A DNA stretch of 64,000 nt, taken from NCBI GenBank assembly GCA_947448745.1, contig CANFOQ010000007.1:1-64000 (forward strand), written 5' to 3'. The notes beneath the pieces are model-generated. The model was not told where the DNA came from and ran no database searches. It saw only the letters and a list, made by a program, of their open reading frames with translations. Position numbers and translations under genes: made by a program. This document shows, in pieces, positions 9,020 to 29,628 of the stretch; within the stretch, counting starts at the first letter, position 1, and every line of letters begins with the position of its first letter. The DNA is from Comamonadaceae bacterium (GTDB lineage Bacteria; Pseudomonadota; Gammaproteobacteria; Burkholderiales; Burkholderiaceae_C).

Positions 9020-9041
9020 GCTTGCAGGCAAGCCTGCAAGC
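9020..9041. promoter_or_regulatory. 22-base perfect palindrome upstream of the sigma gene
   Basis: Arms GCTTGCAGGC and GCCTGCAAGC are perfectly complementary with only AA between them. A 2-base spacer is poor for an RNA hairpin but good for a dimeric DNA-binding protein. It lies 43 bases upstream of the preferred sigma-factor start and in the gap shared with ilvB, so it could control either gene. Confidence 0.5.
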
Positions 9042-9256
9042 GACGCAGATTATGTCACCGAGGTTGCTCTTTCAGGGGCGGATAAACCATGGGCACAGCA
9101 ATCGGTGTCATAATCTTGGGCTCCCAATCAAAAAGGGTTCGAGCATGGTGTGAAACGCTTTTGGCTCGAGATCCAAAGTCTTGATGCGCTTCCAAAAAGA
9201 GTTGCAAAAAGGCACCCTGGGTTTTTCGTCTTCGAAATTCACAAAGGTTTTACACC

Positions 9257-11038
9257 ATGGAAACTACCAAGGCGGCGCCTCCTCAAGCCGCGAATGCCAG
9301 CGACGTTCATGCTGGCAGCACTGAACTCAACGGTTCAGACATTCTTGTCAAAGCACTGCAAGCCGAAAACGTCAAATACCTCTGGGGCTACCCCGGTGGT
9401 GCGGTGTTGCACATCTATGACGCGCTTTACAAACAAGACACGATTCAACACATTTTGGTGCGCCATGAGCAGGCTGCGGTGCATGCCGCCGACGGCTATG
9501 CGCGTGCCACAGGCGATGTCGGCGTGGCCTTGGTCACCTCTGGTCCCGGCGTGACGAATGCTGTGACGGGCATTGCCACCGCTTACATGGACAGCATTCC
9601 CATGGTGATCATCACCGGGCAAGTGCCCACGCACGCCATTGGCTTGGATGCATTCCAAGAGTGCGACACCGTCGGCATCACGCGACCCATCGTCAAACAC
9701 AACTTCCTGGTCAAAGATGTTCGTGAGCTGGTGGATGTGATGAAAAAAGCTTTTCACATCGCTCGCAGTGGCCGGCCCGGCCCCGTGGTGGTCGACATCC
9801 CCAAAGACGTGTCTTTCAAAAAGACCGCGTACAACGGTTACCCAGAGACCGTTGAAATGCGCTCGTACAACCCCGTGCGCAAAGGCCACAGCGGTCAAAT
9901 CCGCAAGGCCTTGCAACTGTTGTTGACCGCCAAACGTCCCTTCATCTACACCGGTGGCGGTGTTTTGATGAGCGAAGCCTCCCAAGAATTGCGCACACTG
10001 GTGGACATGTTGGGCTTCCCCTGCACCAACACCCTGATGGGCTTGGGTGCTTACCCGGCCAGTGACCGCAAATTTTTGGGCATGCTGGGCATGCACGGCA
10101 CAGTCGAAGCCAACAACGCCATGCAAAACTGCGATGTCTTGTTGGCCGTTGGTGCACGTTTCGACGATCGCGTGATTGGCAACCCCAAGCACTTTGCACA
10201 AAACGAACGCAAGATCATTCACATTGACATCGACCCCTCCAGCATTTCCAAGCGGGTCAAGGTGGACATTCCCATTGTGGGTGATGTCAAGGACGTGTTG
10301 ACCGACATGATCGGCATGTTGCGAGAGACGCCCACCAAACCCGATCCAAAATCTTTGGCTGCTTGGTGGGAAACCATCGAGGCTTGGCGTGCCCGCGACT
10401 GCATGAAATATGACCGTGGCAATTCAATCGTCATCAAGCCCCAGGCCGTCATTGAAACCCTTTGGAACCTGACCAAAGACGCAGATGCGTACATCACCTC
10501 CGATGTGGGCCAGCATCAAATGTGGGCCGCTCAGTACTACAAGTTTGATCAACCGCGTCGCTGGATCAACTCTGGTGGCTTGGGCACCATGGGCGTGGGA
10601 ATCCCGTACGCCATGGGCATCAAACTGGCCAAGCCCGAGAGCGAGGTGTATTGCGTCACGGGTGAGGGCTCGGTGCAAATGTGCATCCAAGAACTGTCCA
10701 CCTGTTTGCAATACAACACGCCCATCAAAGTCATTGCCTTGAACAATCGTTATTTGGGTATGGTGCGCCAGTGGCAAGAGATTGAATACTCCGGTCGTTA
10801 CAGCCACAGTTACATGGATGCCTTGCCCAATTTCGTCAAGCTGGCCGAAGCCTATGGTCATGTCGGCATGCTGATTGAGCGGCCTGAAGACGTTGAGCCC
10901 GCTTTGCGCGAAGCCCGCAAATTGAAAGATCGCACCGTGTTCATGGATTTCAGAACCGACCAAACCGAGAATGTGTTCCCCATGGTGCAAGCAGGCAAGG
11001 GCATCACTGAAATGCTGCTCGGCAGCGAAGACCTTTGA
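9257..11038 (+). CDS. ilvB: Acetolactate synthase, large (catalytic) subunit
   Basis: Predicted 593 residues. It joins two pyruvates, or pyruvate and 2-ketobutyrate, in the first common step of valine, leucine and isoleucine synthesis. The N-terminal thiamine diphosphate domain has the catalytic Glu71 in [15 protein letters not shown]; the C-terminal cofactor-binding motif begins at [15 protein letters not shown] and ends with NN (the usual GDG first triplet is GEG here). A hydrophilic extension of about 22 residues precedes the conserved start. It leads ilvB-ilvN-ilvC-pssA, with ilvN 16 bases on. The upstream region has an extended -10-like TGTCATAAT at 9106-9114 but no convincing attenuator. 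Confidence 0.97.
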
Positions 11039-11054
11039 TCGGCGGGCCAACATC

Positions 11055-12592
<1,538 letters not shown>

Positions 12593-12602
12593 TCCAGACG
12601 CC

Positions 12603-13403
12603 ATGCGCAACGACGACACCGACGAACAAATCGAAGCCTCCAGCAGGCTTCGCAAGGGCATCTATGTGCTGCCCAACTTGTTCACCTTGGCCGCTTTGTT
12701 TTGTGGGTTCTATGCCATCGTGATGGCCATGGGCAACCAATACGAAGCTTCTGCATTGGGTGTTTTCTTTGCCATGGTGCTCGACAGTTTGGATGGTCGT
12801 GTGGCGCGCATGACCAATACCCAAACTGCCTTTGGTGCCCAAATGGACTCCTTGGCCGACATGGTGTCTTTTGGTGCTGCGCCGGCCCTGATCGTTTATG
12901 AATGGGTTCTGCGCGATTTGGGACGTTGGGGTTGGTTTGCCGCTTTCGTGTATTGCGCTTGTGCAGCGCTGCGCTTGGCCCGGTTCAATGTGAATACCTC
13001 GGTGGTGGACAAGCGCTTTTTCCAAGGCCTGCCATCACCCGCAGCGGCCGCCTTGATGATGGGCTTCATTTGGTTGGTGACCGTGTTGGGCTTGGTCAAA
13101 ACTGATTTTGTCTGGGTGGCCTTTGCGCTGTGCTTGTATGCCGGTCTCACCATGGTCAGCAATGTGCCGTTCTACAGTTTCAAAGATTTTCAAATGCGCA
13201 AAAGCGTGCCTTTTGCAGTCATTGTGTCCATCGCCTTGGTCATTGCCGTCATCAACATTCACCCCCCCATCGTTTTGTTTTCCTTGTTTCTGATTTACGG
13301 CACCAGCGGTTATGCGGTCTATGCTTGGCGTCGTTTCAAAGGCATACCAACCAGCGTCATCAGCACTTCCACAGACGAGCCTGAAGAAATGGGCTTGCAC
13401 TGA
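12603..13403 (+). CDS. pssA: CDP-diacylglycerol--serine O-phosphatidyltransferase
   Basis: Predicted 266 residues, polytopic, inner membrane. It makes phosphatidylserine, the precursor of phosphatidylethanolamine. The CDP-alcohol phosphotransferase signature DG-x2-AR-x8-G-x3-D-x3-D is complete in DGRVARMTNTQTAFGAQMDS plus LAD, about residues 69-91. It lies ten bases behind ilvC, so it is probably expressed with the ilv genes. The ATG at 12603 is preferred over a TTG at 12573, which would overlap ilvC by 20 bases. Confidence 0.95.
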   Translation: MRNDDTDEQIEASSRLRKGIYVLPNLFTLAALFCGFYAIVMAMGNQYEASALGVFFAMVLDSLDGRVARMTNTQTAFGAQMDSLADMVSFGAAPALIVYEWVLRDLGRWGWFAAFVYCACAALRLARFNVNTSVVDKRFFQGLPSPAAAALMMGFIWLVTVLGLVKTDFVWVAFALCLYAGLTMVSNVPFYSFKDFQMRKSVPFAVIVSIALVIAVINIHPPIVLFSLFLIYGTSGYAVYAWRRFKGIPTSVISTSTDEPEEMGLH

Positions 13404-13439
13404 GCAAGGCATGGCCTGGCGCAGCAGCGGTGCCGCCTG

Positions 13440-13448
13440 TGCTACATT
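13440..13448 (+). promoter_or_regulatory. Extended -10 promoter for the leuA leader
   Basis: TGCTACATT is an extended -10 (TG-n-TACATT); no good -35 is seen. With normal spacing, transcription would begin at about 13455, which is the A of the leader peptide's ATG. No ribosome binding site precedes that ATG, so the leader would be translated as a leaderless mRNA. Confidence 0.45.
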
Positions 13449-13454
13449 TCGCAC

Positions 13455-13508
13455 ATGAATTCTTTGCACAACCTACTGCTACTGGGCTTTTTCGGGCTTC
13501 ATTGGTAG
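13455..13508 (+). CDS. leuL: leuA leader peptide (attenuator)
   Basis: A 17-codon reading frame encodes MNSLHNLLLLGFFGLHW and stops at TAG. Six of its 17 residues are leucine, including four consecutive Leu codons (CTA CTG CTA CTG), the signature of a leucine attenuator: slow translation when charged tRNA-Leu is scarce would let leuA be transcribed. A terminator follows 21 bases after the stop and leuA 98 bases after it. CTA is a rare codon in this GC-rich window, which would sharpen the stall. The symbol follows the role of E. coli leuL; there is no sequence homology. Confidence 0.75.
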   Translation: MNSLHNLLLLGFFGLHW

Positions 13509-13529
13509 CGTTCGCGCATCCTTTTTCCA

Positions 13530-13565
13530 GGCCCGTTTGCAACCGCAACGGGCCTTTTGTTTTTG
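13530..13565 (+). terminator. Intrinsic terminator / attenuator before leuA
   Basis: Arms GGCCCGTT (13530-13537) and AACGGGCC (13547-13554) enclose a 9-base loop and are followed by TTTTGTTTTTG. It stands between the Leu-rich leader peptide and leuA, as the regulated terminator of an attenuator should. Confidence 0.85.
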
Positions 13566-13606
13566 TGTGGACCAGGTTCTGATTGATCAGACCTCAGGAG
13601 TGAGAA

Positions 13607-15145
13607 ATGACCGATAAATTGATAATTTTCGACACCACCTTGCGCGATGGTGAGCAGTCTCCCGGCGCGTCCATGACCCGCGATGAAAAATTGCGCATTG
13701 CCCGCCAATTGGAGCGCTTGCGCGTCGATGTGATTGAAGCTGGTTTTGCGGCCAGCTCAGAGGGTGATTTTTTGGCCGTCAAAGCCATTGCTGACGCCAT
13801 CACCGAATCCACTGTTTGCTCGCTCTCACGCGCCAATGACCGGGATATTTCCAGAGCTGCCGAAGCCTTGAAAGGCGCCAAAAACGCGCGCATCCACACT
13901 TTCATTGCCACCTCTGCCTTGCACATGGAAAAGAAATTGCGGATGACGCCGGACCAGGTGTTTGAGCAAGCCAAGCAATCGGTGCGGTTTGCCCGCAACT
14001 TGGTGGCTGATGTGGAGTTCAGCCCAGAAGACGGCTACCGCAGCGATGTGGATTTTTTGTGCCGCATTTTGGAAGCGGTCATCAAAGAGGGTGCCACCAC
14101 CATCAACGTGCCCGACACCGTCGGCTACGCCGTGCCCGAGTTGTACGGCAACTTCATCAAGACCTTGCGCGAGCGCATTCCCAATTCCGACAAGGCAATC
14201 TGGTCGGTGCACTGTCACAACGACTTGGGCATGGCTGTGGCCAATTCTCTGGCGGGCGTGCAAATTGGCGGTGCTCGCCAAGTGGAATGCACCATCAACG
14301 GCTTGGGCGAACGAGCTGGCAACTGTTCCTTGGAAGAAATTGTCATGGCGGTGAAAACTCGCAAAGACTATTTCGGCTTGACCTTGGGCATCGAAACACA
14401 ACACATCTTGGCAGCCAGTCGCATGGTGAGCCAGACCACCGGTTTTGTGGTGCAACCCAACAAAGCGGTGGTGGGGGCCAATGCCTTTGCCCATGCGTCG
14501 GGCATTCACCAAGACGGCGTGCTCAAAGCGCGTGACACCTACGAAATCATGCGCGCCGAAGACGTGGGTTGGAGCGCCAACAAAATCGTCTTGGGCAAGC
14601 TTAGCGGCCGCAATGCGTTCAAACAACGCTTGCAAGACTTGGGCGTTGAACTTGAAAGCGAAGCCGAAACCAATGCGGCGTTCACGCGGTTCAAGGAATT
14701 GGCCGATCGCAAGAGCGATATTTTTGACGAAGACATTTTGGCCTTGGTCAGTGAAGAAAGCGTCTCTCACGAAGGTGACGTATTTGGCTTTGTGAAGTTG
14801 TCACAGCACAGCGAAACTGGCGAGCGCCCGCATGCGGCCATCGTGTTCACCGACAACGGCAAAGAAATCTCTTGCGATTCCGATGGCAATGGCCCGGTCG
14901 ATGCCTCATTGAAAGCCATCGAGAAGCATGTAAAAAGTGGTGCCGAAATGGTGTTGTACTCGGTCAACGCCATCAGTGGCTCGACTGAAAGCCAAGGCGA
15001 GGTGACGGTTCGTTTGCAAAACAACGGCCGCATCGTCAATGGTGTGGGCTCGGACCCCGACATCGTCGTCGCCTCTGCCAAAGCGTACTTGAGTGCCTTG
15101 AACAAATTGCAGAGCAAAGCTGAGCGTGTGATGGCGCAAGGATGA
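13607..15145 (+). CDS. leuA: 2-isopropylmalate synthase
   Basis: Predicted 512 residues. It condenses 2-ketoisovalerate (from the ilv pathway encoded next door) with acetyl-CoA in the first committed step of leucine synthesis. The HMGL-like TIM barrel starts with [17 protein letters not shown], with the metal ligand Asp and catalytic Arg; [13 protein letters not shown] holds the metal-binding histidines; the C-terminal leucine-binding LeuA dimer domain (about residues 390-505) gives feedback inhibition. The ATG follows CAGGAG. It is preceded by a leucine leader peptide and terminator. I see no leuB/C/D nearby. Confidence 0.97.
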
Positions 15146-28728: not shown

Positions 28729-28845
28729 GCCTCGAACCTTAAAGTTTTCACTGGTGCAAGGCAATGGATTGGCGCTTACAAAATGCCAAAGTGAATGTCG
28801 GGCACTTCGCCCTCATCTGTTTGGATGATGGGAGAAACCCGAGGT

Positions 28846-29628
28846 TTACTGGGCTGCCCAACCACCGTCCATGTTCCAAGCAACGCCGCGCACATTGTTG
28901 CCCGCGGCGGTACAGAAGAACACCGCCAAGGCACCCAATTCTTCGGGCGTGGTGAATTGCATCGAAGGCTCTTTTTCACCCAGCAAAACACGTTTGGCTT
29001 CTTCGTTGGAAATGTTCAAAGCGGCTGCTTTGGCGTCCACTTGCTGTTGCACCAAGGGGGTCAGCACCCAGCCTGGGCAAATGGCATTGCAGGTCACGCC
29101 GGTGGTGGCGGTTTCCAGCGCAGTGACCTTGGTCAATCCGACGATGCCATGCTTGGCCGCCACATAGGCAGACTTTTCGGCCGAGCCCACCAAACCATGA
29201 ACAGAGGCCACATTGATGATGCGGCCCCAGTTGGCCTTCTTCATGGCTGGCAGGGCCAAGCGTGTGGTGTGAAACGCGCTGCTCAGGTTGATGGCGATCA
29301 CGTCGTCCCACTTTTCTGTGGGGAAGTTTTCAATGGCGCACACGTGTTGGATGCCCGCGTTGTTGACCAAGATGTCGACTTGACCAAAACGCTGGGCAGC
29401 GGCTTGCATCATGTCTTCAATTTCTGTCGGCTTGCGCATGTCAGCACCGTGGTAGAGGGTTTGCACGCCCAGTGCTTGAATGGATTGTTCTGCTTCAGCG
29501 TAGGCGCCAAAGCCATTGAGCACAATATGGGCACCTTGTTGGGCCAACGCTGTGGCCAAGCCCAAACCAATGCCGCTTGTGGAACCTGTGACCAAAGCGG
29601 TCTTGCCTTTTAAAAATGGCGTAGTCAT
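28846..29628 (-). CDS. 3-hydroxybutyrate dehydrogenase (SDR)
   Basis: Predicted 260 residues. Classical short-chain dehydrogenase with TGSTSGIGLGLA (NAD-binding, residues 14-25), NNAGIQH, the catalytic Ser in NVASVHG and Tyr-x3-Lys in YVAAKHG. The AGIQHVCAIENFPTEKWD segment and overall length match bacterial D-3-hydroxybutyrate dehydrogenases (BdhA type), which oxidise 3-hydroxybutyrate released from polyhydroxybutyrate to acetoacetate. phaR, the storage-granule regulator, lies about 2.5 kb away. It diverges from relA with about 70 bases between the starts. Confidence 0.9.
   Translation of the reverse strand: MTTPFLKGKTALVTGSTSGIGLGLATALAQQGAHIVLNGFGAYAEAEQSIQALGVQTLYHGADMRKPTEIEDMMQAAAQRFGQVDILVNNAGIQHVCAIENFPTEKWDDVIAINLSSAFHTTRLALPAMKKANWGRIINVASVHGLVGSAEKSAYVAAKHGIVGLTKVTALETATTGVTCNAICPGWVLTPLVQQQVDAKAAALNISNEEAKRVLLGEKEPSMQFTTPEELGALAVFFCTAAGNNVRGVAWNMDGGWAAQ

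Follow-up and report, generated by a model that had tools for sequence, protein, structure and literature searches.

The window analysed here, a 64-kb stretch of DNA of a freshwater bacterium taken as a whole, carries the genes ilvB, ilvH, ilvC, pssA and leuA in this order and in one direction. The features described below all lie on the + strand. The regulated gene leuA (13607–15145) encodes 2-isopropylmalate synthase (NCBIfam NF002087, 893 bits), whose best-matching named relative is that of a Limnohabitans MAG, and its start is preceded by its own Shine–Dalgarno (SD) sequence, AGGAG at 13596–13600. Directly upstream lies pssA (12573–13403, NCBIfam TIGR00473). Between the two genes, 51 nt after the pssA stop codon, a leader ORF of 17 codons begins, leuL (MNSLHNLLLLGFFGLHW, 13455–13508), with its ATG at 13455–13457 and its stop codon TAG at 13506–13508. 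As the preliminary description of this locus had read it, the ORF contains four consecutive Leu codons, two of them CTA (CTA CTG CTA CTG, 13473–13484). It is preceded by an extended −10 promoter element, TGTGCTACATT at 13438–13448, in which the core TG-C-TACATT occupies 13440–13448 and the hexamer TACATT 13443–13448, with no recognisable −35 element. Only 6 nt separate this element from the leuL ATG and no purine-rich SD sequence is present, again in agreement with the earlier reading. The A of the leuL AUG, at 13455 and 7 nt downstream of the −10 hexamer, is the predicted transcription start. No comparable leader was seen by eye in front of ilvB in the window (9030–9280).

Downstream of leuL, the GC-rich stem and T-tract noted earlier were found as a predicted intrinsic terminator hairpin, AGGCCCGTTTGCAACCGCAACGGGCCT (13529–13555, −18.0 kcal/mol), followed by a U-tract at 13555–13564 and then by the leuA ATG at 13607. 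The distance from the peptide stop to the end of the stem, previously put at about 45 bases, is 47 nt by count. The folds suggest that the 5' part of this hairpin, AGGCCCG at 13529–13535 (segment 3), is common to the terminator and to a competing antiterminator. The putative 5' arm of the latter, CGGGCTT at 13493–13499 (segment 2), lies within the leuL ORF and was recognised from folds with a masked, stalled ribosome and from the usage of GGG codons. A small hairpin, GCG-UUCG-CGC at 13508–13517, sits within the antiterminator loop in the fold of the window copy, and a similar block, GCGC.CGCGC, was seen in the alignment of relatives.

To place the locus among its relatives, 164 loci gathered via LeuA were used. 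A Leu-rich leader ORF was accepted upstream in 123 of them, giving 117 unique leaders, of which 97 come from L001–L130 (window included) and 20 from other Burkholderiales families. The group of 97 is mostly Comamonadaceae and includes records titled only Burkholderiales and one Rubrivivax. L002 was dropped as identical to L001; the picks of the Leu rule at L018, L084, L134, L136, L163 and L164 were not accepted as leaders, and no leader was found at L018. By the same rule 35 of the 164 loci have no leader, many of them having another leuA copy upstream or a short contig, and these stand outside the counts of 97 and 20 except for L070, which was added by hand. L095, L098, L103 and L111 were left out of the leader alignment, and the masked-ribosome fold was run without L073. 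All counts given here come from related sequences that are not independent, and they should not be read as probabilities. The end of PssA lies directly upstream in 79 of the 97 leaders, with 18–142 nt (median 46) from its stop codon to the leuL ATG. Tandem leuA-like genes were observed in Variovorax, Polaromonas, Ramlibacter and other relatives (L035, L038, L039, L046, L047, L062, L066, L068, L079 and others); wherever a leader could be seen at these loci, it sits 1.8–2.0 kb upstream, before the first copy.

As the rule used for picking leaders itself selects for Leu, we also searched without any Leu requirement, using the pattern T[AG]TGnTAnAnT-N5-8-ATG followed by a short ORF. Of 121 unique regions upstream of leuA, 90 yielded such an ORF, with at least three Leu within six residues in 89 cases and two in the remaining one (L070). 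Elsewhere in the 80 loci L032–L111, on both strands, the motif occurred 12 times, every time at a Leu leader; these occurrences are 1.8–2.0 kb ahead of the leuA fetched, with a leuA-like coding end (by a crude pattern) in between in 10 of the 12 cases. The preliminary description had named relatives with non-conserved Leu codons as the observation that would speak against attenuation; the Leu codons turned out to be conserved. The choice among synonymous codons is also strongly biased, CTA accounting for 215 of the 464 Leu codons of the 97 leaders versus 25 of 3062 in 82 leuA genes of these loci. This enrichment matches the CUA control codons of the Salmonella leu attenuator, in which a change from CUA to CUG is described as having made it less sensitive (Carter et al., cited in PMC1183508). 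Apart from the Leu run and a tail with Gly, the peptide is variable among the 97 leaders. The stop codon is TAG in 78 of the 97 leaders versus 15 of 81 leuA genes, a preference that may reflect pairing between CTA and TAG.

The promoter and its position relative to the ORF are similarly constant. Of the 97 unique leaders, 90 carry TGnTAnnnT at a distance of 6–8 nt upstream of the leuL ATG (61 at 6 nt, 28 at 7 and 1 at 8), compared with a background of 73 of 8181 ATGs in L032–L111, in which the leuL starts are counted too. Allowing a neighbouring upstream ATG with a gap of 5–8 nt, an in-frame ATG follows the extended −10 in 96 of 97. At L109 the −10 is missing from where it would be expected. 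The conserved promoter block across the leaders reads T-T-G/A-T-G-n-T-A-n-A-n-T. When 90 leaders were anchored on the −10, the columns 13–45 nt upstream of its 3' end did not exceed 0.21 bit, and hence a −35 box at constant spacing is not conserved. A simple scan of 13300–13660 found no site with the two-hexamer sigma-70 consensus, and its terminator part does not list the hairpin at 13529–13555; presumably it misses the −10 and the hairpin because it requires a −35 hexamer and because the stem is interrupted.

The same region has no recognisable SD sequence. Upstream of leuL, the longest match to AAGGAGGTGA is 2–4 nt in all 97 leaders, whereas 68 of the 97 leuA starts have a match of 5–6 nt. 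Matches of 4 nt occur in 25 of the 97 leaders versus 13.0 in shuffles, and 24 of these 25 are GTGA belonging to the TGTGA form of the −10. At position −1 relative to the leuL ATG, 74 of 97 leaders have C, with mixed bases at −6 to −2; a C before the ATG is what would be expected of a pyrimidine–purine transcription start. Together with the −10-to-ATG spacing conserved in relatives, these features lend support to the leaderless start suggested earlier from the window alone, and leuL is very likely leaderless across the family as far as its sequence can tell, with a leader of 1–3 nt possible, the −10-to-start distance being a rule of thumb. We also considered a more conventional attenuator, in which the transcript starts further upstream, at a distant promoter or by read-through from ilvBHC-pssA, and leuL is translated from an internal AUG without an SD sequence. 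The ilvB-ilvH-ilvC-pssA-leuA order and the short distance from pssA would allow such read-through. Nevertheless, the extended −10 at its fixed spacing is the sole conserved upstream sequence within the 45 nt examined, a C stands at −1 in 74 of the 97 leaders, no SD match longer than 4 nt occurs in the 97 leaders, and an internal AUG without SD is expected to start poorly. We therefore regard an upstream start as improbable and favour a message that begins at the leuL AUG.

We next turn to the RNA structures that such a message could form. In 96 of 97 leaders a hairpin resembling a terminator reaches −10 kcal/mol or better (median −18.9 kcal/mol), the one without a terminator being L103. In the window, the free fold of 13455–13566 reaches −33.5 kcal/mol (z −2.07), and 7 of 200 dinucleotide shuffles are at least as good. 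Among 93 aligned leaders, two outer terminator pairs exchange with no mispairs (A-T 76, C-G 15, G-C 2 for one; G-C 74, A-T 19 for the other), and one inner pair fails in 8. The covariation terms of RNAalifold gave no bonus (0 for the pairing of segments 2 and 3, +0.75 for the terminator); with almost no variation in the 2:3 core, covariation speaks neither for nor against this pairing. The tail of the leuL ORF reads ACGGGC in 65 of 97 leaders, with a closely similar sequence in 31 of the 32 others, and is complementary to the terminator 5' arm GCCCGT. Of the 96 leaders with a Gly codon towards the end of the ORF, 92 use GGG for it, compared with 290 of the 3150 Gly codons of 82 leuA genes, suggesting that the RNA is constrained and not the peptide alone.

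In the window, segment 2 starts 8 nt past the Leu run and can pair with the terminator 5' arm at 13529–13535. When the second Leu codon was masked as occupied by a ribosome, at least three expected 2:3 pairs were obtained in 86 of 95 leaders, compared with 31 of 95 without a ribosome. With the ribosome masked at the stop codon there were none, because the masking then covers segment 2. By a wider measure of 2:3 pairing, at least four pairs were found in 90 of 96 leaders versus 33.2% of 960 shuffles; the fold test alone is modest, since one third of the shuffled controls also pair with segment 3. For a ribosome on the second Leu codon, segment 2 starts a median of 8 nt (2–17) past its assumed edge. 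Comparative folding of the leaders, which the preliminary description had put forward as a check, thus predicts alternation of antiterminator and terminator in most of the group of 97 (the 86 of 95 in the masked fold), and in silico the antiterminator is exclusive with the terminator and controlled by the position of the ribosome. One part of that description did not hold. It had the antiterminator formed from the Leu-codon region itself, and an antiterminator built from the Leu codons was rejected; segment 2 consists of the codons just past the Leu run.

The Leu codons may have a structural partner of another kind. In 70 of 96 leaders they can pair with the ORF end to form a protecting hairpin (1:2, at least three pairs). 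In the window copy this hairpin is weak, and without a ribosome 4.89 expected 2:3 pairs were obtained, the antiterminator being favoured. RNAalifold found no common 1:2 structure between the Leu run and the stop codon. We also asked whether the CTA bias could be a structural need of the 1:2 hairpin, and discarded this explanation. In 768 leaders resampled with Leu codons drawn at leuA usage (weights from the leuA count without reverse-strand loci, CTA 15 of 2434), the same criterion of at least three pairs lowered the 1:2 hairpin from 70 of 96 to 58%, so the sensing of a rare codon offers a simpler reason for CTA. Rfam covariance models gave no match at the gathering score at the leuL locus, and the leucine leader gave none there with E values up to 10; among amino-acid leaders, the closest was a sub-threshold Trp_leader (17.4 bits, cut-off 41, E 0.39). 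Likewise, no Rfam matches were found in 20 relatives, 15 from other families.

Taken together, the terminator in 96 of 97 leaders, the CTA enrichment and the 2:3 folds support the ribosome-mediated leucine attenuation proposed in the preliminary description. We consider it highly probable that leuA is controlled here by an attenuator which responds to charged leucyl-tRNA and is built on a leaderless message. Directed by the extended −10 promoter, RNA polymerase would begin with the A of the leuL AUG, and a ribosome would initiate on this 5'-terminal AUG without an SD sequence and translate leuL. When Leu-tRNA is scarce, above all the isoacceptor reading CUA, the ribosome would stall in the CUA/CUG run; segment 2 (CGGGCUU) would then be free past the ribosome and pair with segment 3 (AGGCCCG), and leuA would be transcribed. 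When leucine is plentiful, the ribosome would reach the UAG stop codon and cover segment 2, segment 3 would pair with segment 4, and transcription would end about 110 nt from its start. The released leaderless RNA of about 110 nt, or the peptide, could instead act mainly in trans, as rnTrpL and peTrpL do in Sinorhizobium, where rnTrpL is likewise described as a leaderless, terminated leader RNA (PMC7298713); given how the peptide varies beyond its Leu run and Gly-containing tail, we find this very unlikely. The least credible explanation is a plain terminator of the pssA operon, with the ORF being fortuitous and the leuA promoter unrelated: the hairpin does sit between two genes, but the Leu ORF, the CTA bias, the promoter spacing and the ORF–terminator complementarity are all conserved, and the lack of a two-hexamer promoter in 13300–13660 means that none was found between the terminator and leuA.

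Leucine attenuation is well known from enterobacteria, where leuL of E. coli and Salmonella controls leuA through a competing antiterminator and terminator and has a normal 5' UTR with an SD sequence and a longer leader. The predicted attenuator of about 110 nt studied here differs in that its ORF appears to start at the first base of the transcript. Shared between the two are the CUA-rich Leu leader peptide (for CUA, see PMC1183508), the opposition of antiterminator and terminator, and the control of leuA. Leaderless leader peptides have themselves been described elsewhere. The trpL transcript of S. meliloti (rnTrpL/peTrpL) is reported to begin at the AUG of the leader ORF and to form a ribosome-dependent attenuator with a terminator; this organism is an Alphaproteobacterium, the codons are for Trp, and its 5' end is a reported one, whereas that of leuL in the window is predicted (PMC7298713). 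In S. lividans, leuL1, leuL2, trpL1, trpL2, ilvL and others are listed as leaderless, and leader ORFs with a Leu run are described as transcribed leaderless before leuA or leuS (PMC8079986). A leaderless leader ORF with a Leu run would thus be common to leuL of the window and to leuL1 and leuL2 of S. lividans, with the difference that leuL1 is described as having no typical intrinsic terminator (PMC8079986) and leuL of the window has a strong one. The leader peptide of ilvBNC in C. glutamicum is cited as having no ribosome-binding site (Morbach 2000, cited in PMC4046766 and PMC11857589), and the actinobacterial LEU element is presented as a pseudoknot in which the Leu run pairs with the SD sequence of leuA (PMC1262725). 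Closer to the present family, dRNA-seq of Burkholderia cenocepacia is reported to have placed the starts of 72 genes at the start codon, with no mention of 'leuA' or 'leader peptide' in the main text of that paper (PMC4603805). We found no report of a leaderless attenuator peptide in the literature searched for Betaproteobacteria, including Burkholderiales, Burkholderia, Ralstonia and Bordetella, although a 2004 survey of proteobacterial attenuators may already predict a leuA attenuator for this class of bacteria. Leaderless attenuator peptides being already known in rhizobia and actinobacteria, what appears to be new here is classical leucine attenuation run from a leaderless message.

Leaders of other Burkholderiales families share part of this arrangement. 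In 12 of the 20 Leu leaders from these families, TAnnnT lies 5–8 nt before the ATG, the background being 16 of 345 ATGs. A hairpin of −10 kcal/mol or better was found in only 1 of the 20, and CTGCTGCGC-N3/4-GCGC (or its TTG form) stands at the ORF end in 12 of 20. The output step of these leaders likely differs, and is perhaps Rho-dependent or of another kind. The leader type seen in L133–L160 has a longer ORF, often ending in LLLR.AR, and C-rich stretches after the stop codon. For aromatic and Trp leaders, 20 loci each from other families gave a mixed picture, some of the leaders being leaderless and many ambiguous, and no conclusion here draws on them.

To see whether the promoter-to-AUG arrangement is specific to leuL, we searched whole genomes. 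In ten genomes of the same genus, the strict motif TGTGNTANANT-N6-7-ATG gave 21 matches versus 2 for a reversed-pattern control: 9 were Leu leaders before leuA, 10 were Phe/Tyr leaders before DAHP synthase and 2 were other. Other occurrences of the strict motif, at L299 and L300, belong to an 83-residue antitoxin-like protein and to an ORF of 7 codons lying immediately ahead of a larger one. In the genome of the window itself, the strict TGTG form gave 3 matches versus 1 in the reversed control, and a looser promoter–ATG pattern was not enriched (14 versus 19 in the reversed control). Across 150 genomes of the family, 83 had a strict match; there were 131 matches and 27 in the reversed control (hand sums), so that roughly a fifth of the 131 may be due to chance. 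Thirty loci, one per genome, were examined and comprised 16 Leu leaders, 11 Phe/Tyr leaders and 3 that were neither, with L316, L324 and L330 classed from the peptide alone; at L304, L308 and L312 the next gene was taken to be another form of LeuA.

The Phe/Tyr leader MFSVKFHFAYFWFSRPNGGREV precedes DAHP synthase in the genome of the window. This leader and its terminator (L178:272–400, contig 28, about 28770–28900) are predicted to be leaderless with a leuL-like architecture, and CGGCGGT at the end of the ORF is the complement of ACCGCCG in an arm of the terminator. Among 30 loci of the same genus the DAHP-synthase leader was found in 25, 24 of them with a gap of 7 nt; both this set and the trpE set of the genus consist of related sequences. 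In front of trpE, 27 of 30 same-genus loci have an ORF with a Trp motif, 25 being a Trp-Pro-Trp leader and 2 a case in which a different ORF was picked. The gap is 6–9 nt in 22 of the 25, and 13 nt in 3 in which the second ATG was taken. In the genome of the window, a candidate leaderless Trp leader (GAWPWRR) lies before trpE on contig 37 (L179:281–376) and is conserved in the genus. No consistent terminator was noticed for the trpE leader in the genus.

Based on these observations we tentatively propose, as a possibility rather than an expectation, that in Comamonadaceae an extended −10 fused to the AUG is a dedicated design for amino-acid attenuators (of leuA, DAHP synthase and probably trpE), using leaderless initiation of the 70S type and insulating the gene. 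In such a scheme, read-through RNA from ilvBHC-pssA, having neither an SD sequence nor a 5'-terminal AUG at leuL, would remain untranslated and be terminated, and a shortage of the amino acid could relieve only RNA started at the AUG. The strict promoter-to-AUG motif is almost confined to leader peptides of this kind (19 of 21 matches in ten genomes), which turns what looked like an odd leader into a rule that may hold family-wide and provides a simple sequence signature for finding attenuators in the family. It would also supply a natural set of short, strongly selected leaderless messages with which to ask why attenuation should be leaderless, be it for a faster first ribosome, for tighter coupling or for insulation from read-through.
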